DNA of 64,000 nt from a virus. This document shows positions 11,371 to 63,738 of this stretch, in pieces. A model generated the notes under the pieces. That model worked only from the letters and a program-made list of their open reading frames with translations. It did no database searches and had not been told where the DNA came from. A program made the translations under genes and the position numbers. The DNA lies in IMG/VR virus record IMGVR_UViG_3300023178_000019, positions 34,564 to 98,563 of that record; one strand, 5' to 3'. Every line of letters starts with the position of its first letter. Position 1 is the first letter of the stretch.

Positions 11371-11962
11371 CTATTCCAAAATTTGCACTAATAGTGGATC
11401 TTAATTCATCAGCCTTGTGTGTTGATACATAATGATCTAAACTAGCAGGAAAGAAAATAATATCCCCTTCTTCTAGCGGCGGCGTAACTCTTCTTCCCAT
11501 AAACGGTTTGTTTGTAAAGCATTGTGCAAGATGTACCGGAAAATGACTGTAACTAGAATCATAAAAAGAAAAACTTGCACTGTTTGGTGGTAACTTTAAC
11601 ATATATGCACAGCTAATTACTAAATTTCCACCACTATGGGAATGTACTTCTTGGTATTGTCCTTTTGTATATCTATTTGCCCATGCTTGTCCGTACATTT
11701 TTTCACATGCTTCTTGTGACAATCCTATAGAATATGCATATTCGTCTACTAAATTATAAACAGTTTTAAAAAACAAATGCCAAGGAAATAAACTATTTTT
11801 TTCATCATTTTGAATTGTTGTTCTACAGTCACAATCCCAAAATGTTGCTTGATCAAAATTATCTTCAGACTCAATAAAAGGAGTAAATCCTTTTAAAATT
11901 TCTTCGTGATTAGGCATTTTTGTTTTATATACAGGTGTGCCAAAAATTACATTAAGACTCAT
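11339..11962 (-). CDS. 2OG-Fe(II) oxygenase family protein
   Basis: 207 residues with the features of the phage/cyanobacterial 2-oxoglutarate, Fe(II)-dependent oxygenase family: N-terminal NVIFGTPVYKTKMPNHEE, a WANRYTKGQYQEVHSHSGGN segment carrying metal-binding His, and a C-terminal GDIIFFPASLDHYVSTHK with the second His, then LRSTISANFGI with the Arg that binds 2-oxoglutarate. These enzymes hydroxylate proteins or small molecules. As the last gene of the operon with a glycosyltransferase and a carbamoyltransferase, a modification of the same sugar or of a fibre protein is plausible but not shown. Its start overlaps the end of the carbamoyltransferase gene by 11 bp. Confidence 0.78.
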   Translation of the reverse strand: MSLNVIFGTPVYKTKMPNHEEILKGFTPFIESEDNFDQATFWDCDCRTTIQNDEKNSLFPWHLFFKTVYNLVDEYAYSIGLSQEACEKMYGQAWANRYTKGQYQEVHSHSGGNLVISCAYMLKLPPNSASFSFYDSSYSHFPVHLAQCFTNKPFMGRRVTPPLEEGDIIFFPASLDHYVSTHKADELRSTISANFGIAIDEITNQQS

Positions 11963-13745
11963 TTTTTACCTTTACTAACTTTTTCTTTTCTGGCAAATAC
12001 AAATATTCAATTTTACTTTTTGCTAGTGTATGGAATGCATCTTCTAAAGTTTCAACTAGAGGATCGCCGCCTAAATTAAAACTTGTATTAAAAATAATCG
12101 GACAACCTGTCTTTTCTTTAAAGGCTTTAATCAAATCATAGTAGTTTGCATTTTGTTCTCTGTTAACAGTTTGAATACGGCAAGTTCCGTCTACGTGAAT
12201 AATAGCAGGAATCTTTTCTTCTACTCCGGGCTGACAATTAACAGCATACATCATTGTAGGAGAGTTTTTCATACCTCGCAAGTCAAACCATTCATGCACA
12301 TCTTCTTCTAGAATAGATCCTGCAAATGGGCGGAAATATTCTCTGTTTTTAACACGATTTACAAAATCTTTTCCGTCAGGATCTGTTGGATCATAAAGAA
12401 TACTTCTATTACCTAATGCACGTGGGCCGTTTTCACTACGTCCTTGAAATATTGTAACAATATTTTTGTTTGTAATTAAGTCGATAACATCTTCATTAGT
12501 AGCATCTGTAACTTCGGCAGAGTATTTTTTTGCTAGTTGTTGGATATCACCTTCTGTAATTTTATAATCTGGTCCTAGATAAACAGTTTCAGCTTGAGAA
12601 TCAATCGACATATCTTTAGTAAGACTTCTATGTAACCACAATGCTGCACCCATTGCAGTGCCGCCGTCATTTGAAACCGGCTCTACATAAAGATTAATAT
12701 CATTGTCTATCTCTTTTAAATAATGATAATTTGCAACACAATTCAACCCATATCCACCGCTTATAACAACATTTTTAATTCCTGTAGATTCAACAGCATG
12801 TTTTATTAGTTGAGTTACCGCTGCTTGAGATTCTACTTGTACTGCATATGCCATATCTCTTCTATTTTGGCATAGTGTTGCATCTTCTTCACCTTTGTCA
12901 ATCAAATAACTATATAAATTTTCGTTTAGAATAGAACCGTTTGGATATCTCGGAACAAATAAACTTCTATTACTTACTGGAATAGGCAAATCAGTATATG
13001 GATCAAATACCGGAGGAATTAAATCATTAGGTTTACCATATGGAAATAATCCCATAGTTTTTCCAGCTTCAATGGCATCCCAGCCACAGTATTCTGTTAC
13101 ACCCTCATAACACTTAACAATGCCTGCTCTATCAGATAACGAAGTTGAAAATTTACCTATTTCTTTACCAAAAATATCTTGATCAGGTGCTGTAAGTTCT
13201 GCTGTTGGCAGATAGTCTCTACAACCCATAGTTTTAAAAAGAGTTTGTATATTGTCTGGATATGTACATTTATATAATGTTTCAGTTTCCCACATATGTT
13301 TTATAGATCCGTCAACTTCTAAATCAAAACAAGTCCCAGCACCGTCAACAATAACTGCTACTGCTTCTTCAAAGCCACTTCTATAAAATGCTAAACTGGC
13401 ATGCATTTTATGATGTAGTTTAGATACATCGATTACTTGTGGATGCGGATCCCAAGGCGGAGAATACTCTATTAGACCTACTTTTCTAGCAAGACCTGTG
13501 TAAATATCCTCAGCAGTATAATCAACTCTACCAGCTGTTTCTGCAAGAGTTTGTGTATGCGATATTACCATGTAATCAAGTTTGTCTGTATACTCTAAAA
13601 TTTTTAGAATTGACGCTAACGGTCCTCCATCGTACTTTTTACGAGTAAGTCTTTCTTCTTCAATAGAAAAAACTATTTCTCCATCTTTTAATAAGCATAC
13701 TCCAGCATTGTGTCCTCTAGCAAGTCCTGCTATCCACATACTCAT
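11952..13745 (-). CDS. Carbamoyltransferase (NodU/CmcH family)
   Basis: 597 residues, full length for the family. The N-terminal ASKHA-type domain has GLARGHNAGVCLLKDGEIVF, SIEEERLTRKKYDGG, HHKMHASLAFYRSGFEEA and VDGAGT. Then come MGLFPYGKP and VVISGGYGLNCVANY. The C-terminal domain has the signature FQGRSENGPRALGNRSILYD and IIFNTSFNLGGDPLVETLED. These enzymes transfer a carbamoyl group from carbamoyl phosphate, through carbamoyl-AMP, to a hydroxyl, commonly on a sugar (nodulation factors, antibiotics). Here the likely acceptor is a sugar added by the neighbouring GT9-like protein. Its 5' end overlaps that gene by ATGA, so expression is coupled. Confidence 0.9.
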   Translation of the reverse strand: MSMWIAGLARGHNAGVCLLKDGEIVFSIEEERLTRKKYDGGPLASILKILEYTDKLDYMVISHTQTLAETAGRVDYTAEDIYTGLARKVGLIEYSPPWDPHPQVIDVSKLHHKMHASLAFYRSGFEEAVAVIVDGAGTCFDLEVDGSIKHMWETETLYKCTYPDNIQTLFKTMGCRDYLPTAELTAPDQDIFGKEIGKFSTSLSDRAGIVKCYEGVTEYCGWDAIEAGKTMGLFPYGKPNDLIPPVFDPYTDLPIPVSNRSLFVPRYPNGSILNENLYSYLIDKGEEDATLCQNRRDMAYAVQVESQAAVTQLIKHAVESTGIKNVVISGGYGLNCVANYHYLKEIDNDINLYVEPVSNDGGTAMGAALWLHRSLTKDMSIDSQAETVYLGPDYKITEGDIQQLAKKYSAEVTDATNEDVIDLITNKNIVTIFQGRSENGPRALGNRSILYDPTDPDGKDFVNRVKNREYFRPFAGSILEEDVHEWFDLRGMKNSPTMMYAVNCQPGVEEKIPAIIHVDGTCRIQTVNREQNANYYDLIKAFKEKTGCPIIFNTSFNLGGDPLVETLEDAFHTLAKSKIEYLYLPEKKKLVKVKNES

Positions 13746-14722
13746 ACATTTTCTCCGAAATTTTCTTTTGGTTGTTTAGGTGCAGTCTTAATAGACTTAC
13801 CTACAGTTTGTTTAATTGATTTTACGATATCATTAATATGTTCTTTGCTCATATTCATTGCTTTATCGTTTAATCTATCTGGTTCTTCTTCAGTACTTAC
13901 ACGTATAGGACTATAAACTCTTCTACCGTCTCCTATATCAAACACTGTTATATCTTTGTCATTTAGATAAGTTGTGTTGATAGGAAAAGTACTTCCTGTA
14001 ATTACAGTTGCTTGTTTTCCTAAAGATTTTGCAATATGTTGTCCTACACTGTCACAACCTAAGAAATGATCAGCTGCTTCTATTACACCTGCCCATATTC
14101 TAATATCCGGTATTTGAGGTTGTGCAAGCGGAGTGTTATCGCCGTCTTCATTATAAAATGGTAAGGGAAGTTCACTCATAATAATAACACCATAATCTTG
14201 TTTCAGTTGATTAGCAATATCAAGCATATCTTCTGCTCTAAAACTTCTAGATGTTTGGTCTATTAAACTTTCTTCAACACCTCGGCCAAATGGTTGTATT
14301 ACAATAACTTTATTAAATCCAGTAACATCTTTTACTTCTTGTACTACTGATTTTCCATTATGCTGTTCTGATTTATTAAGATATATGTTAGGTATAGGTA
14401 CTTCTCTTATGCCTTGTTTATTAATTTCAATATCAAATGCTTGTGCAAGACTACATTTTTGATTATAATATTCCCATATACGATATGGTTCTGGACTTAC
14501 ACAATTTCTATCTTTGATATATTGTTCAAATAATCCTTTATGCCATACATCGTATGCACGTCTATGAAGTGTAGGATGTCCTTTATAAAAGTCAGTTCCG
14601 CCTTCGCAAACAATAATAAAATCGTCATTTGGATTTTCTTTTTCATATAGTTCAAGTGCTGGAATTGAGGTTATAACACGACCGGCACCGCCGTTAATAA
14701 AGAATGCTGTAGATCTAGTCAT
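13742..14722 (-). CDS. Glycosyltransferase family 9 / heptosyltransferase-like protein
   Basis: 326 residues with a GT-B look. The N-terminal half has INGGAGRVITSIPALELYEK (GT9: G.GD.i.t.P...). The second half has KVIVIQPFGRGVEESLIDQ (GT9: P.....k.wp) and the diagnostic nucleotide-sugar region IWAGVIEAADHFLGCDSVGQ, then HIAKSLGKQATVITGST (GT9: D.gp.H.A.alg...v.lfG.t). GT9 contains the ADP-heptose:LPS heptosyltransferases, which matches the ADP-heptose genes facing it. Residues after about 290 are a basic tail. It is first in a minus-strand late operon driven by a perfect TATAAATA. The acceptor (LPS core or virion protein) cannot be read from sequence. Confidence 0.7.
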   Translation of the reverse strand: MTRSTAFFINGGAGRVITSIPALELYEKENPNDDFIIVCEGGTDFYKGHPTLHRRAYDVWHKGLFEQYIKDRNCVSPEPYRIWEYYNQKCSLAQAFDIEINKQGIREVPIPNIYLNKSEQHNGKSVVQEVKDVTGFNKVIVIQPFGRGVEESLIDQTSRSFRAEDMLDIANQLKQDYGVIIMSELPLPFYNEDGDNTPLAQPQIPDIRIWAGVIEAADHFLGCDSVGQHIAKSLGKQATVITGSTFPINTTYLNDKDITVFDIGDGRRVYSPIRVSTEEEPDRLNDKAMNMSKEHINDIVKSIKQTVGKSIKTAPKQPKENFGENV

Positions 14723-57351: not shown

Positions 57352-59112
57352 TTATATTGTCTGATCATTTGCCGGCGCTGCTGCTGCGCCACCTATATCT
57401 TGTCCTGTTGCTGTTTCTGGTGGTGCTCCTTCTCCACCGTCTTCAGGTGCTGGTCCTCCAGCTGCAACATCTTCTGCACCGTCTAAATCGGAACTAATGC
57501 CTGCGCTGCTAATGCCTGCTGTTCTCATTTCACCTGCGCCATCTGTATCAGGTGTTCCTAGATTTTCGTCATTTTCTTCACGCCATAGTCTTTCATTCTC
57601 TGCAATCTCTTCAGCACTCATTCCTAAGAAGCGTTTCATTGCAAATCTGTTTGAAACATAAGGAATTGCACTCATTTGTGTAAACGTTGGAACTCTTGCA
57701 TTGTCTAGTTCTGACTGTCTATATGCTGCAAAGTTTTGCGGTGCTTGGAACTCAAGATCAAACATGTTAGTGTCAATGTTTACACCTTGTTCTAACAAAT
57801 AACGCTTAAAGTCTTGATTAAATTCTTCTGTAATTAAGCCTTGCAGACGTTCACAGTAGTTATTGAAGCGAAGTTCTTGAATGTATGCAGTGCCAACTCG
57901 TCCATCTTGAAATGAAGTGGCACCATCGTCAGCTCCAGTAGGTAAGTACGAAGATGGGATACGTAAGCCGCGTACCAACTTATTAGTAAAGTATCTAAGG
58001 TCATCAATTTCTCCTAGGTTAGTGCCACCTGGAAGCGTTTCAACTTTAGAGCCTCTACCTTCTGCGGTCTGTGGGAAGAAGTAGTCTTCGTTGATTGATA
58101 GAGGATTGTATGATGAGTCTATGACATTCTGACCGCCCCCTGTTGACGATGGGATCCTTCTCTGATGGATTTCCGTCTTAACACGTTCCACAAACTGCAT
58201 TGCCAAGTGACTTGGCATGTTACCCACATCAACGTAGAATACTCTGCGCTCCGGCGCACGTTGGACACGATAGATGATGATCGCATCCTCAAGCAGTTCT
58301 TTCTGCTTGTAAACTTTAAAAATGCTTTCAAGCAAACTGTTACCAAATGGATAGTTTTGATCAAGTCCTTCACTTAAACTTAAATGAACAACATGTTCTG
58401 CATTAATAGCAACTTCTCCGTCTTCGACATTAAATCTAGAACCTTGAAGTCCTTGCTGAGGTTGTCCAACCATTCCTCTACCACTTCCAGTAAAGTACCC
58501 GGTATTAGGATTGCCGCCGCCTGTTATGTTGCCTGTAGTTTGAAAAGGTGTTGTTGCTACTAATTCTTTAAAGTTTAAATTAAAATCTTTAATTATATAT
58601 TGTTCAGGAGTTTTTCCTTCTGACTCGTTAACAATAATTCTTGTAAGTTTAGCAGGATCAACATGATACCATTTTTTAGTTTCTGGGTCTCTTACAAATA
58701 TTGCATCTCCGTATTTAAATACATTACGGAAGATACGAAACATACGTGTTTCAAATTTTTGAACTTTGCACCATTGTTTTAAGTATTGCCCTAGAATTGT
58801 AATTTCTGAATTAGTTGCATTTTTAAAAAAATTAAATTTAAAATTAGTTCCGTTTTCGTCATTGATTTGTGTACAAAACTCTGCAAGAATATCTAATGCA
58901 GCGTTTACTTCACTGTCATTGTCCATGGTGTTGTATTGACCATAACGCTCAACACGATTAGGTGATCCAACATATACATCAGGAAGATATGATGAATAAT
59001 TAGAACGTGCAGGGCCTGGGCGGGCACCAGATGCTGTTCCGCTTAAAGGACTGTAAGTTCCGTTAATTGAGTTATCTGAACTCACAGGTGTAAAATATTT
59101 TTTCCAACTCAA
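57352..59112 (-). CDS. 20: Portal protein gp20
   Basis: 586 residues, dodecameric portal at the packaging vertex. Conserved T4-portal stretches: YGQYNTMDNDSEVNAALDIL, AEFCTQINDENGTNFKFNFF, IFRNVFKYGDAIFVRDPETK, HLSLSEGLDQNYPFGNSLLE, ILEDAIIIYRVQRAPERRVF-type core (seen as LLEDAIIIYRVQRAPERRVF), YVDVGNMPSHLAMQFVERVK and DDGATSFQDGRVGTAYIQEL. The last 70 residues are Gly/Ala/Asp-rich. The start is TTG (59112), read as SWKKYFTPV after it, with GAGGAG 8 nt upstream; no in-frame ATG lies nearby. It is followed, in T4 order, by head-core genes. Confidence 0.95.
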   Translation of the reverse strand: MSWKKYFTPVSSDNSINGTYSPLSGTASGARPGPARSNYSSYLPDVYVGSPNRVERYGQYNTMDNDSEVNAALDILAEFCTQINDENGTNFKFNFFKNATNSEITILGQYLKQWCKVQKFETRMFRIFRNVFKYGDAIFVRDPETKKWYHVDPAKLTRIIVNESEGKTPEQYIIKDFNLNFKELVATTPFQTTGNITGGGNPNTGYFTGSGRGMVGQPQQGLQGSRFNVEDGEVAINAEHVVHLSLSEGLDQNYPFGNSLLESIFKVYKQKELLEDAIIIYRVQRAPERRVFYVDVGNMPSHLAMQFVERVKTEIHQRRIPSSTGGGQNVIDSSYNPLSINEDYFFPQTAEGRGSKVETLPGGTNLGEIDDLRYFTNKLVRGLRIPSSYLPTGADDGATSFQDGRVGTAYIQELRFNNYCERLQGLITEEFNQDFKRYLLEQGVNIDTNMFDLEFQAPQNFAAYRQSELDNARVPTFTQMSAIPYVSNRFAMKRFLGMSAEEIAENERLWREENDENLGTPDTDGAGEMRTAGISSAGISSDLDGAEDVAAGGPAPEDGGEGAPPETATGQDIGGAAAAPANDQTI

Positions 59113-59113
59113 T

Positions 59114-61306
59114 TTATACGCTCCTCAACATATCTGTTCCTAAATTTCCAATGCCTCTTCTAATTTTATCTGAAGATTGTGCTGATCTTTGATTTACAGC
59201 AACTAGTTCTTCTAATTTTGGTACTAATGTATTATTCATTGCTTCTTCTAAAGGACCTCGTAACCTCATAGCCATATCTTGCATTGTTCTTTCAACTGTA
59301 TTAGTTTCTGTCGAACTTGGCTGTATACTTGCCATTTCAGTAGGTAAAGTCCTTATAGTATTTAACATTCCGTCAAGCATTCCGGTTGTATTTGTGGTAG
59401 TATCTGATAGACTAGCTGATAGTGATCTAATTGCACCTAGTGCAGAACTTTCAACAATGCTTGCCATTTGATCAGGAGTAACAACAGCTTCAAGCCCGTG
59501 CAAGTTTACTGCTGTACTTTTACCAAAGTTTTCGAATAATCTTCCAACAGTTCCTAAAGATCCAAAGTTTCTGTTTGGATTCATTTCTGACATCATATTT
59601 CTTATTTCTTCTAATTGTTCTGGACTTAACGAATTAGGATTTGGTGCAGAAGGATTTAAAGTAGAATTATCCATTATAGTTCTTAAGGCTGCTGTTAGTG
59701 TATCTATTTCTGATTTTAATGCAGTATTACTTGTGTCTCTTGCGTACTCTTGTGTTTTATTTGAAAGGTCATCGATTATGTTTGTCATTTGGTCAACATC
59801 AGTAGCTTCAAAACCTAATGTGTTCATTCTATCAACAAACAAAGAAGCATCTCTTTGAAGTTGAGTAGACGCTGCTACGGTTGCCATAACTTGACTGTTT
59901 GTATCGTGAAATGCTCTAGCTGCATCACCAATCGGACCTTCGATTGTAGCTAAAATATCTCCTAACACATCTCGGCCTTCAATAAATTGTACAAATCTAT
60001 CAGCCGCAGCAGTTAAAGTATTAAATATTCCGTTAACAACAGCTTCTTGCGCACTCATAGCTACTGACTGAAGTTGTCGTATGCCGCTTAAATATTGATC
60101 TAATAATTGTTGAGACTGAGAAGTTCTTGATGTTTGATTTCTTCTTTCTTCTGTGATAATTGCATCCATTGCTTGAGCAATCTGATCACCTGACAGATCT
60201 TCAGGTGCAGTTTCAGGAAACATTTCAAGTGCTTTTGCTCTAATTACATCTCCGCTTAGTGCTAGGCCACTACTAAGCTCAGTCATAATATTCATCGAAC
60301 CTTGAGAAATTTCAGTTGCACTACCTAGCATTGCTTGTCTAATCAAGAACTGATTGTTTCTAAGTTGTGTTGCTTCACCTAATGCAGCGTCCATTAACAT
60401 TTGTGCTCTTGTTTCATCGCCGTCTAAAAATGCTTGGCGAGCTTCCATTAGTGCATCTCTTAGTCCAGGTGCTGCTGCGTTTAATGCTCTCATTTCAGGA
60501 TCATCCATATTTGGAAATCCTCTTGTAAGAATATCAACTGCAAAATCTTTAACACTAGGTGCAACTTGTCTAAGTGCTAGTAATCCGTTATCAAGTTCGT
60601 CTCTTACATCTTGGTCAAGCATTTGTCCAAATGCAAATACATTACCTTGTCTAGATATTTCAGCTTGTTCTTCAGCAAGAGCATCTGTTTGTTTGCCTGT
60701 AAGTCTTGCCAATTCGTCAAGTGTTTTTGCATATTCAGCTGCTGCTAGATTACGTTCTCTTTCATTCATTCTAGACCTAATGCCTTGAATGGTTGCTAGT
60801 GAATCAAATGATGCAAACGTTTCGCTCAATGTTTGCGAAGTATAACCGAGACGTTCAAGTTCAATTCGTTGTTCATTGAACAACCCATTAGATTCGGCCA
60901 TAAACGCTGCTTGGGCTGATAAAAATGCTTGAGCACCTGCATTAGCAGTTCCTCCCATTGCAGCAAATTCTATATTATTTTGTTGAACAATTTTTGCAAA
61001 GTCTTCGATTCGAAGATTAGCACGACCGACCCCTAGGATCATTTGGTCTATTTCATTATTAAAATGTATACCAGAACGTGTAAGTCCTTGCCATATACTA
61101 ATGTATCCTTCAGCAAATGCCATTGAATCGGCAAACATCTTCATGCCAGGTGCTGCGGCCATAATAGGAGCCATAGCTTGAGGAGCACCGCGAACAATGC
61201 TACCGACCATGCTGCCTAAACCGTCAATGGCTTGATTTAATCTGTTAAAGGCACCAGTATTTCTGTTTACTGACTCAGTATTTTCATTTCTGGTTTCTTC
61301 TGCCAA
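59114..61306 (-). CDS. Tail tape-measure-like protein
   Basis: 730 residues, mostly helical. The N-terminal 60 residues include a Met/Ala/Gly-rich hydrophobic stretch (GAPQAMAPIMAAAPGMKMFA). A long helical body (RNLAAAEYAKTLDELARLTG, LLALRQVAPSVKDFAVDILT) follows. Near residue 592 is LGTVGRLFENFGKSTAVNLH then GLEAVVTPDQM, the 'FE.fG..t.a.LHG.EAVvp' motif common near the C-terminus of phage tape-measure proteins. T4 gp29 has the corresponding role (590 residues). It diverges from the gp26-like gene, whose frameshifted chaperone partner is expected next to a tape measure. The start is TTG (61306) with GGAG 8 nt upstream. Could alternatively be an internal tail-tube or head protein. Confidence 0.65.
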   Translation of the reverse strand: MAEETRNENTESVNRNTGAFNRLNQAIDGLGSMVGSIVRGAPQAMAPIMAAAPGMKMFADSMAFAEGYISIWQGLTRSGIHFNNEIDQMILGVGRANLRIEDFAKIVQQNNIEFAAMGGTANAGAQAFLSAQAAFMAESNGLFNEQRIELERLGYTSQTLSETFASFDSLATIQGIRSRMNERERNLAAAEYAKTLDELARLTGKQTDALAEEQAEISRQGNVFAFGQMLDQDVRDELDNGLLALRQVAPSVKDFAVDILTRGFPNMDDPEMRALNAAAPGLRDALMEARQAFLDGDETRAQMLMDAALGEATQLRNNQFLIRQAMLGSATEISQGSMNIMTELSSGLALSGDVIRAKALEMFPETAPEDLSGDQIAQAMDAIITEERRNQTSRTSQSQQLLDQYLSGIRQLQSVAMSAQEAVVNGIFNTLTAAADRFVQFIEGRDVLGDILATIEGPIGDAARAFHDTNSQVMATVAASTQLQRDASLFVDRMNTLGFEATDVDQMTNIIDDLSNKTQEYARDTSNTALKSEIDTLTAALRTIMDNSTLNPSAPNPNSLSPEQLEEIRNMMSEMNPNRNFGSLGTVGRLFENFGKSTAVNLHGLEAVVTPDQMASIVESSALGAIRSLSASLSDTTTNTTGMLDGMLNTIRTLPTEMASIQPSSTETNTVERTMQDMAMRLRGPLEEAMNNTLVPKLEELVAVNQRSAQSSDKIRRGIGNLGTDMLRSV

Positions 61307-61376: not shown

Positions 61377-62216
61377 ATGGAAAATACACAAAGCCCTCTT
61401 CAAAAATATAAGAGACAGCCTAAGTTATATATAGACTTACCAAGCCAAGGTGCTTGGTATAATAATGATATAGCTGAAAAATATGAAGAATTAGAAGTTT
61501 TTAGCATGACTGCTAACGACGAGATTCTAGCTAAAACACCTGACGCATTGATTTCAGGAAACGCAACAGTAAAAATTATACAAAGTTGTATTCCTTCTAT
61601 AAAAAATGCTTGGTTACTAACTAATGCTGATTTTGATTATGTAATGGCTGCAATTAGATTAGCTTCGTTTGGTGAAGCAATAACTTTAAGTTCGAAGTGT
61701 ACTAGTTGCGGCAATGACGATGCATATAGTTTATCAGTTCAGTCTTTATTAGATCACGCTGCTGCGTTTAAAGGTACATTTGAAACACGTATTGAAGATT
61801 TTACTTTTAGACTTAGACCGTTAACATACAAAGAAATGGTTGAAAATCAGCAAGTTTCAATGAGAGTTAGACGAGAACTTGCACAGATTATATCAAGAAC
61901 TGACATTGACCAAGATAAAAAAGATGAATTAATGAATTCACTTTACGAACAAATTAATACTCAAACTGAAAATATTATTTGTAATGTAATTGTTGATGTT
62001 GTTACTCCTGACGGCGATGTTGAATCAAACATGGAGTTTATTAAAGATTTTGTAATTAATAATGATAGTGTATTCTTTAACGGAATACAAACAATATACT
62101 CAACAAACAATCAAGAACTAGAGATGCCGGCTACTGAAGTTGAATGTAGCGAATGTCAACACAAACAAAACATTAAGCCAAACTTGGACTATTCGAGTTT
62201 TTTCTTGAAAGTTTAG
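61377..62216 (+). CDS. 26: Baseplate hub / tail assembly protein gp26-like (T4_baseplate family)
   Basis: 279 residues. Family hallmarks: PKLYIDLPSQGAWYNNDIAE, EVFSMTANDEILAKTPDALI, SGNATVKIIQSCIPSIKNAW and DFDYVMAAIRLASFGEAITL. Two CxxC pairs (SKCTSCGND at about 115 and VECSECQHK near 263) could bind one zinc. In T4, gp26 and gp51 act in hub assembly. Its last codons contain a -1 slippery heptamer, and a -1 frame continues 73 codons past its stop, as in tail-assembly-chaperone pairs. Perfect late promoter and AAGGA upstream. It is longer than T4 gp26 (208). Confidence 0.85.
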   Translation: MENTQSPLQKYKRQPKLYIDLPSQGAWYNNDIAEKYEELEVFSMTANDEILAKTPDALISGNATVKIIQSCIPSIKNAWLLTNADFDYVMAAIRLASFGEAITLSSKCTSCGNDDAYSLSVQSLLDHAAAFKGTFETRIEDFTFRLRPLTYKEMVENQQVSMRVRRELAQIISRTDIDQDKKDELMNSLYEQINTQTENIICNVIVDVVTPDGDVESNMEFIKDFVINNDSVFFNGIQTIYSTNNQELEMPATEVECSECQHKQNIKPNLDYSSFFLKV

Positions 62217-62437
62217 TCTCACTCTCGGATTCTGAAATTTTAGAATTATCAAAAAGTATGGAGAACGAAGTAAAGCAAATCAAACACGAAGTTTATAAAC
62301 TTTCTTGGTATATGCGAGGAGGAGTAAACTCAAAAGATTTGCTTACTGACACTGACATAGAGGATATCGAAATTTTAGGAAAAATTGTTAAAGAAAATAT
62401 TGACGCTACTAAAAGTTCTAAAATGCCGATGATTTAA
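62177..62437 (+). CDS. -1 frame extension downstream of gp26 (probable frameshift product C-terminus)
   Basis: Frame open from 62177 to the TAA at 62435-62437. It reads FEFFLESLVSLSDSEILELS, KSMENEVKQIKHEV, YKLSWYMRGGVNSKDLL and IEDIEILGKIVKENIDATKS. This is a coherent amphipathic helical sequence that begins before any start codon: the first ATG in frame is 62258 (MENEVKQ), with only AAAAAG upstream. Entry by a -1 shift at 62198-62204 explains why the coding look extends upstream of the ATG. It takes the position of T4 gene 51. The stop overlaps the convergent gene at 62434. Independent initiation at 62258 is the alternative. Confidence 0.7.
   Translation, partial: AKLGLFEFFLESLVSLSDSEILELSKSMENEVKQIKHEVYKLSWYMRGGVNSKDLLTDTDIEDIEILGKIVKENIDATKSSKMPMI
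62198..62204 (+). promoter_or_regulatory. Programmed -1 frameshift site (slippery heptamer)
   Basis: T-TTT-TTC in the gp26 reading phase (AGT TTT TTC) fits X-XXY-YYZ exactly. Slippage puts the ribosome on TTT TTT CTT GAA, the frame of the extension, four codons before the gp26 stop at 62214. A weak hairpin (ATTCT/AGAAT) lies about 25 nt downstream. Confidence 0.7.
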
Positions 62438-63738
62438 AAATCATTAAGATTAAATTTTCGACGCTCTGTATTATTATTTTGAGGATTTATTTGTATAGGT
62501 TGCGCCGGGCCGCCGGCTTCTATTTCATCACCTGATGCAGATGTAGCTTTTCCAAACTCTTTTTCAAATTCAAGCCCTAGTCTTTCAATTGCATCTACTC
62601 TTTCCATTTCGCTTACAGTATCTCCAAATTGAGGTACTACTTTTGAATTCCATTGTTCAGTAATAAGATTGTCAACAAACTCTGCTCCTGTATAACCCCA
62701 CAATGCTAGTTGATTAACATAATCTTTTGCAATGAATCCCATAATTACTTTTTGTACATCTGGATTGCTTGTAGCTGCTCTAATAGCAAAATATATAGCT
62801 GCTTCAACAGCTATGAACTGTAACAAATTTTTAAAAGCCATCAGTGCTTGACCTGGCAGGCCGCCAACAAATGCAGCAATTTGACTTGCTGTCATGTTTG
62901 CCATATTTGCAGCTCTAAATATTTTAACTATAGAAGAAAGCAAAAGTCTAGTGCCTGCTCTTAGAGCACCTATTAAATCAGGAACTGCAAAAGTAATAAA
63001 CCAAGCGCCAAATAGTTGTCTCGAAGATACTGCAAAATTTTCTGCTGATGTTTGATCATTAACAGAAGCATACATATTAATTAACATATCTTTTAAAGTA
63101 TCATATGCTGCCATACTAACACCTGGACGGAAGGTAAATGGAAATAGACTCCTCATAGTAGATGAAGTAGCTTGTCTTAAGAAAGAAATGTTGTTACGTG
63201 CCCATCTTCTTGGATTCTTCTTAGCTTCTTCGTCCATGGTTAAAAGTTTTCCACGTTGTGCTTCAACATCTCGTGCTATTTGGGCTCGACGAGCGTTAGC
63301 TTGTTGTGTAAACGCTTCTATTTCTTGTCTTGTGTATCTATGGCCACCATGTTCAATGAATCCGTCGCGACGTAATTGAGCTTGAATGCTTCTAGGTAGT
63401 TTTCCGTTACGGTCTTTGAGATCATCCCATTCTAAAGGAGGTTTGTTTGTTGTAGTAGGAATTGCATTGTTTGGTGCCGGCGACCCCGAAGCTCTAGGAT
63501 CAAAACTAGAATTTCTTCGTATTTCTAAATTAATAGTGTTGTTGTAGTTTTGTGCTGCCTGTGCATTATCAAAAGTTCTTACAATATAATTTGGATCAGT
63601 AGGTCTTAATCTTGTATCAACTACATTATATCCCAAAGAGGTATTTCCGGTACTCATAATAGTACCACTTTCAACTTCAAAAACTGATTCAACAAGAAGT
63701 TTTGCTGATTCTACAAATATCTCATTAATAGCAACCAT
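62434..63738 (-). CDS. Unknown protein with hydrophobic C-terminal half
   Basis: 434 residues, no family recognised. The N-terminal 170 residues are polar (AINEIFVESAKLLVESVF, PPLEWDDLKDRNGKLP, LRRDGFIEHGGHRYTRQEIE). From about 200 come several hydrophobic helices (LFGAWFITFAVPDLIGALRA, FVGGLPGQALMAFKNLLQFI, AVEAAIYFAIRA). The tail is acidic then Gln/Asn-rich and basic (INPQNNNTERRKFNLNDF). The hydrophobic helices without a signal peptide suggest a virion protein delivered to or through the cell membrane at ejection, or a phage membrane protein. Late promoter GAATAAATAC and AAGGA precede the ATG. Its 3' end overlaps the frameshift ORF by 4 bp. Confidence 0.6.
   Translation of the reverse strand: MVAINEIFVESAKLLVESVFEVESGTIMSTGNTSLGYNVVDTRLRPTDPNYIVRTFDNAQAAQNYNNTINLEIRRNSSFDPRASGSPAPNNAIPTTTNKPPLEWDDLKDRNGKLPRSIQAQLRRDGFIEHGGHRYTRQEIEAFTQQANARRAQIARDVEAQRGKLLTMDEEAKKNPRRWARNNISFLRQATSSTMRSLFPFTFRPGVSMAAYDTLKDMLINMYASVNDQTSAENFAVSSRQLFGAWFITFAVPDLIGALRAGTRLLLSSIVKIFRAANMANMTASQIAAFVGGLPGQALMAFKNLLQFIAVEAAIYFAIRAATSNPDVQKVIMGFIAKDYVNQLALWGYTGAEFVDNLITEQWNSKVVPQFGDTVSEMERVDAIERLGLEFEKEFGKATSASGDEIEAGGPAQPIQINPQNNNTERRKFNLNDF

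Follow-up and report, generated by a model that had tools for sequence, protein, structure and literature searches.

A gp26-family gene with a second open frame at its end

The window analysed here, 64,000 nucleotides in length, makes up the final 64 kb of an IMG/VR virus contig of 98.6 kb. It includes a T4-type portal gene at positions 57352-59112 (PF07230, E 2e-108), and judging from its sequence the source of the window is a T4-like phage of the jumbo type. The features at the locus are the following.

59114-61306, minus strand: divergent gene for a 730-amino-acid protein, a possible tape-measure protein (weak similarity to 121Q gp597)
61377-62216, plus strand: gp26-family gene, the short form, 279 amino acids with two CxxC pairs (PF12322, phrog_150, alignment A1)
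62198-62204, plus strand: slippery heptamer T_TTT_TTC in 0-frame phase (read from the sequence; kept in relatives)
62205-62216, plus strand: last 0-frame codons of the short form, TTG AAA GTT, and the TAG stop (its length, 0-11 codons, and its sequence vary among relatives)
62204-62437, plus strand: -1 frame extension, 77 codons after Phe-Phe and then TAA, the predicted C-terminal domain of a long form (conserved FFRxxLL...WYMRGG pattern, no -1 stop in relatives, third-position excess)
62258-62260, plus strand: first ATG in the -1 frame, the sole conventional independent start, giving a 59-amino-acid product (no Shine-Dalgarno sequence)

The gp26-family gene matches PF12322 with a score of 51 bits (E 2e-13), which passes the curated cut-off of 24.5 bits, and matches phrog_150 with an E-value of 1e-14. 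In tblastn searches it matched 63 phage records, almost all of them from jumbo phages, with Atu_ph07, Phosso, 121Q and RaK2 among them. Its 3′ end reads AGT TTT TTC TTG AAA GTT TAG, such that three sense codons separate T_TTT_TTC from the TAG at 62214-62216. The in-phase heptamer near the gp26 stop that a preliminary description of this DNA had proposed is thus borne out. The same description placed an open -1 frame at 62177-62437, starting upstream of its first ATG, and these coordinates are exact: no stop interrupts the frame from 62177 until the TAA at 62435-62437. The first ATG, GTG or TTG in this frame is the ATG at 62258, located 18 codons beyond the heptamer and 41 nt past the stop. A Shine-Dalgarno sequence was sought before this ATG and is absent (the preceding letters are TGAAATTTTAGAATTATCAAAAAGT), in contrast to the gp26 ATG, which has TAAGGA upstream.

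Heptamers of this kind are common in AT-rich DNA, and the heptamer by itself was rejected as evidence. Given the encoded Ser-Phe-Phe and local codon usage, the probability of the heptamer in the window is 0.41. TTTTTTC occurs 16 times in the window when both strands are counted, and eight X_XXY_YYZ heptamers fall in the last 15 codons of its 32 open reading frames of at least 150 amino acids. Because the window heptamer alone is unremarkable, the case for frameshifting rests on relatives. Elsewhere in the window, A_AAT_TTC is present at 13762 on the minus strand, a few codons before the stop of a 326-amino-acid open reading frame (13742-14722) and in phase into an overlapping 597-amino-acid frame (11952-13745) that has its own ATG; this occurrence is probably due to chance.

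Sequences that might stimulate a shift were also sought. Downstream of the window's heptamer, z values of −0.34 over 50 nt and +0.20 over 80 nt indicate no RNA structure, and none was found to be consistent across relatives. Unusually stable RNA lies within ∼80 nt after the slippery site in Atu_ph07, Phosso, XacN1, phi-Grn1 and IMG36770, with z values of −4 to −7. By eye, no Shine-Dalgarno-like stimulator is seen upstream of the site in the window; cyanophage-type relatives have GAGG-like sequences before theirs.

A tape-measure-like gene had been described as lying next door, and a gene for 730 amino acids does adjoin the gp26-family gene, but it is on the opposite strand and its identity is insecure, with no family match in Pfam or PHROG. 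It shares 17% identity with 121Q gp597 (E 0.003), and this 121Q homologue belongs to the virion structural protein family phrog_14121. The neighbour may be the tape measure. In the window, no tape-measure gene follows the gp26-family gene immediately in the same orientation; in phi-Grn1, a tape-measure-like gene (phrog_58, E 7e-10) comes next on the same strand. In the mass spectrometry table for CBB virions, CBB_251, the gene in the neighbour's position, is represented by 29 peptides, and the gp26 homologue CBB_250 is missing from the portion of the table available, as expected for a chaperone.

Conservation of the slippery site and of the -1 frame

The T run at the end of the gene is retained throughout the jumbo-type and cyanophage-type relatives in which it could be scored, with one distant megaphage differing. 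In all 21 other jumbo-type relatives with a scored gene end, the last in-phase Phe-Phe is encoded by a slippery heptamer, either T_TTT_TTC (19 relatives) or T_TTT_TTT (XacN1 and RAS14), and the megaphage LR756511 also has T_TTT_TTC. Likewise, each of 78 scorable cyanophage-type contigs has an in-phase T_TTT_TTN located 0-1 codon ahead of the stop, with the final codon being TTC in 74, TTG in two and TTA in two. In the four contigs with TTG or TTA, Phe-Phe has become Phe-Leu, yet the T run is kept. Aeh1 reads GAT TTT TTC GAC TGA, and its -1 extension is conserved. Across 16 representative lineages, in a calculation that leaves out the Ackermannviridae site, the probability from codon usage is ∼10^-8.9, a value to be read with the caution that the lineages share history and are not fully independent.

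Some relatives have a different site. Ackermannviridae and Vibrio phage D533 (L046, L136, L137 and L139) carry ATT_TTC or CTT_TTC, with four T only, and these sites are nearer to the T7 gene 10 type than to the full X_XXY_YYZ heptamer. The -1 extension is conserved in these phages as well.

Beyond the heptamer, selection is specific to the -1 frame. Among 94 genomes from three groups, none has a -1 frame stop within 50 codons after the heptamer, and frame 0 is closed by a stop in every one of them. Substitutions in these genomes pile up in third positions of the -1 frame, and they do so in the first 18 codons too. The FFRxxLL peptide follows without a gap on the short form's Phe-Phe, and in many relatives it lies before any possible start codon; in place of the FFR of most relatives, the window has FFL. 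Alignment of the junctions, which the preliminary description had proposed as a check, reveals that the T run and the -1 frame are kept and that the position of the start codon wanders or that the codon is absent. The pattern named there as contrary to frameshifting would be a loss of the heptamer in relatives that retain the second frame together with a start codon of its own, and the opposite was found.

The conserved site and -1 frame, together with the frame-specific selection, support the earlier proposal of a frameshift of the lambda G/GT type. We consider it very probable, on this comparative sequence evidence, that one gene gives rise to both a short and a long tail-assembly chaperone by a -1 frameshift of this kind. 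Most ribosomes would end at the TAG (62214-62216) and yield the 279-amino-acid short form, a gp26-type tail-assembly chaperone. A minority would slip by -1 on T_TTT_TTC, as the two Phe tRNAs, first paired with TTT TTC, pair anew with TTT TTT. These ribosomes would then read 77 more codons in the -1 frame to produce a 353-amino-acid long form, whose C-terminal domain would be the counterpart of the one in T4 gp51. As in lambda G/GT, many short copies might coat the tape-measure protein while a few long copies recruit tail-tube subunits, and both forms would depart before the tail is completed. For the window phage, it is inferred that ribosomes slip, how often they do so and that the products act as chaperones.

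Several relatives have sequences at the junction that could instead serve independent translation of the small frame. ATGA overlaps occur in Atu_ph07 and Phosso, and overlaps of the TAATG or TGATG type in 121Q, phiW-14 and phi-Grn1; in about half of the relatives, a possible start codon lies inside the first five codons of the extension, in some cases within an ATGA or TAATG overlap with the gp26 stop. A separate small open reading frame is annotated there in several records. The small frame could thus be a gene with its own start, reached by re-initiation after the gp26 stop (translational coupling), with the T run being incidental. In the window, however, use of the ATG at 62258 would drop the conserved N-terminal part of the domain. 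The first start codon of the extension is codon 30 in RaK2 and codon 33 in S-CAM8, and a search for ATG, GTG or TTG in the Cassandra extension found none. An incidental T run is also at odds with its retention where the amino acid changes, and in T4-type phages the domain is fused in frame as gp51. We therefore regard an independent gene as unlikely, and note that coupled re-initiation could contribute in those relatives with early start codons. Phage records L001, L003, L011, L013, L017, L044, L045 and L048 have the extension annotated as a separate hypothetical protein with differing starts, and the start codons given there are probably wrong.

A fusion could also be encoded by mixed mRNAs arising from transcriptional slippage on the six-T run at the site. 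Six T is shorter than the usual length for efficient polymerase slippage, and the four-T run of the ATT_TTC and CTT_TTC sites in Ackermannviridae is shorter still. Moreover, polymerase slippage needs no codon phase, whereas the phase of the site is invariant. Transcriptional slippage is consequently a highly improbable source of the long form.

Finally, one gene might have been split by a recent frameshift mutation or by an error of assembly. Nothing speaks for this beyond the frame change itself, and it has next to no probability, as the junction is the same in four other contigs and the arrangement is the same in scores of relatives across genera. Three of the four contigs, all from IMG/VR, are identical to the window across 62100-62440, and the remaining one (L007) differs by three bases, all before the heptamer, with the -1 peptide unchanged; the junction is therefore no assembly indel.

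The extension and the origin of T4 genes 26 and 51

PF12322 matches both T4 gp26 (E 9e-64) and T4 gp51 (E 4e-52), and by their sequences the two proteins are paralogues. At its C-terminus, gp51 has ∼50 residues more than gp26. When a profile of four gp51 C-termini was compared by hhalign with the cyanophage-type -1 extensions, the two aligned end to end with an E-value of 3.7e-10 and a probability of 96.8%. The corresponding comparison with the jumbo set, which includes the window, gave a weak match (P 3e-4, probability 17%). The family phrog_634, labeled “baseplate hub assembly catalyst”, matches residues 147-246 of T4 gp51 (E 1.2e-23) and also the -1 extensions of cyanophage-type relatives (5.5e-32), RL2RES (2.5e-14) and phi-Grn1 (1.2e-12), with a weak match to that of phiW-14. 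No PHROG family matched the -1 peptide of the window itself, and a sequence search for a homologue of solved structure gave no match.

Thus, profile similarity clearly indicates that the -1 extension of cyanophage-type relatives is homologous to the gp51 C-terminus. For the window and the other jumbo phages, the comparison is suggestive of the same counterpart, and because it is suggestive only, the identity of the jumbo extension rests mainly on its position and residue pattern. The link to gp51 made in the preliminary description holds in substance: the second frame would be the counterpart of the C-terminal domain of gp51, but it is not a separate gp51 gene.

The number of PF12322 genes per genome differs between phages with and without the frameshift. 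T4, Konradin, JSE and KP15 have two, a short 26 and a long 51, whereas each scored frameshift genome has one; the model missed SCTP-2, where tblastn detected the gene. In a 44-protein tree, gp26 and gp51 form one clade (97/97) that lies beside the frameshifting Straboviridae Aeh1 and phi-Grn1 and is nested among frameshift lineages, although long branches and the odd placement of KP15 gp26 call for care. KP15 gp26 (L053, 2741-3295) has 184 amino acids, which is short relative to other gp26 proteins, and has a very long branch. The simplest history suggested by these sequences is that a single duplication giving 26 and 51 replaced the frameshift. The Phe-Phe of T4 gp26 is encoded by TTC TTT, without a slippery run.

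On this comparative evidence, the ancestor of the T4-like phages with contractile tails is likely to have had one poly-T -1 frameshift in its PF12322 chaperone gene already; these phages range from cyanophages of ∼160 kb and phages like Aeh1 and KVP40 to jumbo phages of ∼500 kb and a megaphage of 595 kb. Genes 26 and 51 of T4 would then go back to one subsequent duplication, through which the short and the long form each became fixed and the slippery site was lost, such that T4 and its close relatives would obtain the same two forms from two duplicated genes, the short one from 26 and the long one from 51. In at least one megaphage, LR756508, the extension seems to have shifted into the +1 frame. 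An extension-like peptide (..QQLIYYSNGGYSWYNVYHHMP..) occurs in this genome (L019) after position 2745, in the +1 frame rather than the -1 frame, and a T run is absent. A change in the direction of the shift is a possible reading of this sequence.

Relation to known tail-assembly chaperones

The G-T frameshift has been reviewed as widely conserved in long-tailed phages, T4 excepted. The preliminary description spoke of gp26 and gp51 as usually being treated as separate hub proteins; this is less well supported, as the literature already treats both as hub-assembly chaperones, with gp51 not being found in the T4 particle. Both are annotated as “tape measure protein assembly chaperone” in two Acinetobacter phage records. 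According to PMC10274946 and PMC12846349, Vladimirov, Gautam and Davidson (2022; pmid 34826709) identified the tail assembly chaperones of T4-like phages, with gp26 as the short and gp51 as the long protein. The former of these sources describes some T4-like phages as having a short gene and a long gene in place of frameshifting, and the latter, citing Vladimirov et al. 2022, describes poly-T slippery sites in T4-like chaperone genes. The roles of gp26 and gp51 as the short and long chaperones of T4 are thus already known; the breadth of conservation and the single-duplication history may be new.

Should our reading hold, the line leading to T4 would be derived and not an exception to the frameshift of long-tailed phages. 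The genetics of genes 26 and 51 in T4, and with it the “unknown function” ascribed to gp51, could then be read directly in terms of short and long chaperone forms. The reading also offers a testable correction for records of jumbo phages and cyanophages in which the extension is unannotated or is entered as an independent hypothetical protein whose start was guessed. In addition, it raises the question of whether a fixed ratio of short to long forms is needed when the two come from separate genes.

Four known systems are closest to the gene compared here. The site of T7 gene 10 is resembled by the ATT_TTC sites of Ackermannviridae, but gene 10 is a capsid gene and the window has the full T_TTT_TTC. 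The chaperone gene of Vandenendeviridae and Andersonviridae, described for phage Adele (PMC12846349), likewise has its -1 site in a poly-T run, close to where the short form ends, and a -1 frame that is open in every genome, although these are other phage families and the motif is GTTTTT. T4 gp26 and gp51 belong to the same protein family as the window gene, and gp51 carries the additional C-terminal domain that is encoded by the -1 frame in relatives; T4 differs in having two genes and no frameshift, with gp26 lacking the slippery run. Lambda G/GT is unrelated in sequence to the PF12322 protein of the window, whose short form has roughly double the length and contains two CxxC pairs. The window gene also has T_TTT_TTC rather than the lambda heptamer, and it is divergent from its neighbour instead of lying directly upstream of the tape-measure gene. 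The predicted layout is the same as in lambda, where one gene provides a short form and a low-level -1 extended form, the heptamer is in phase just before the stop, and the extension adds tens of residues.
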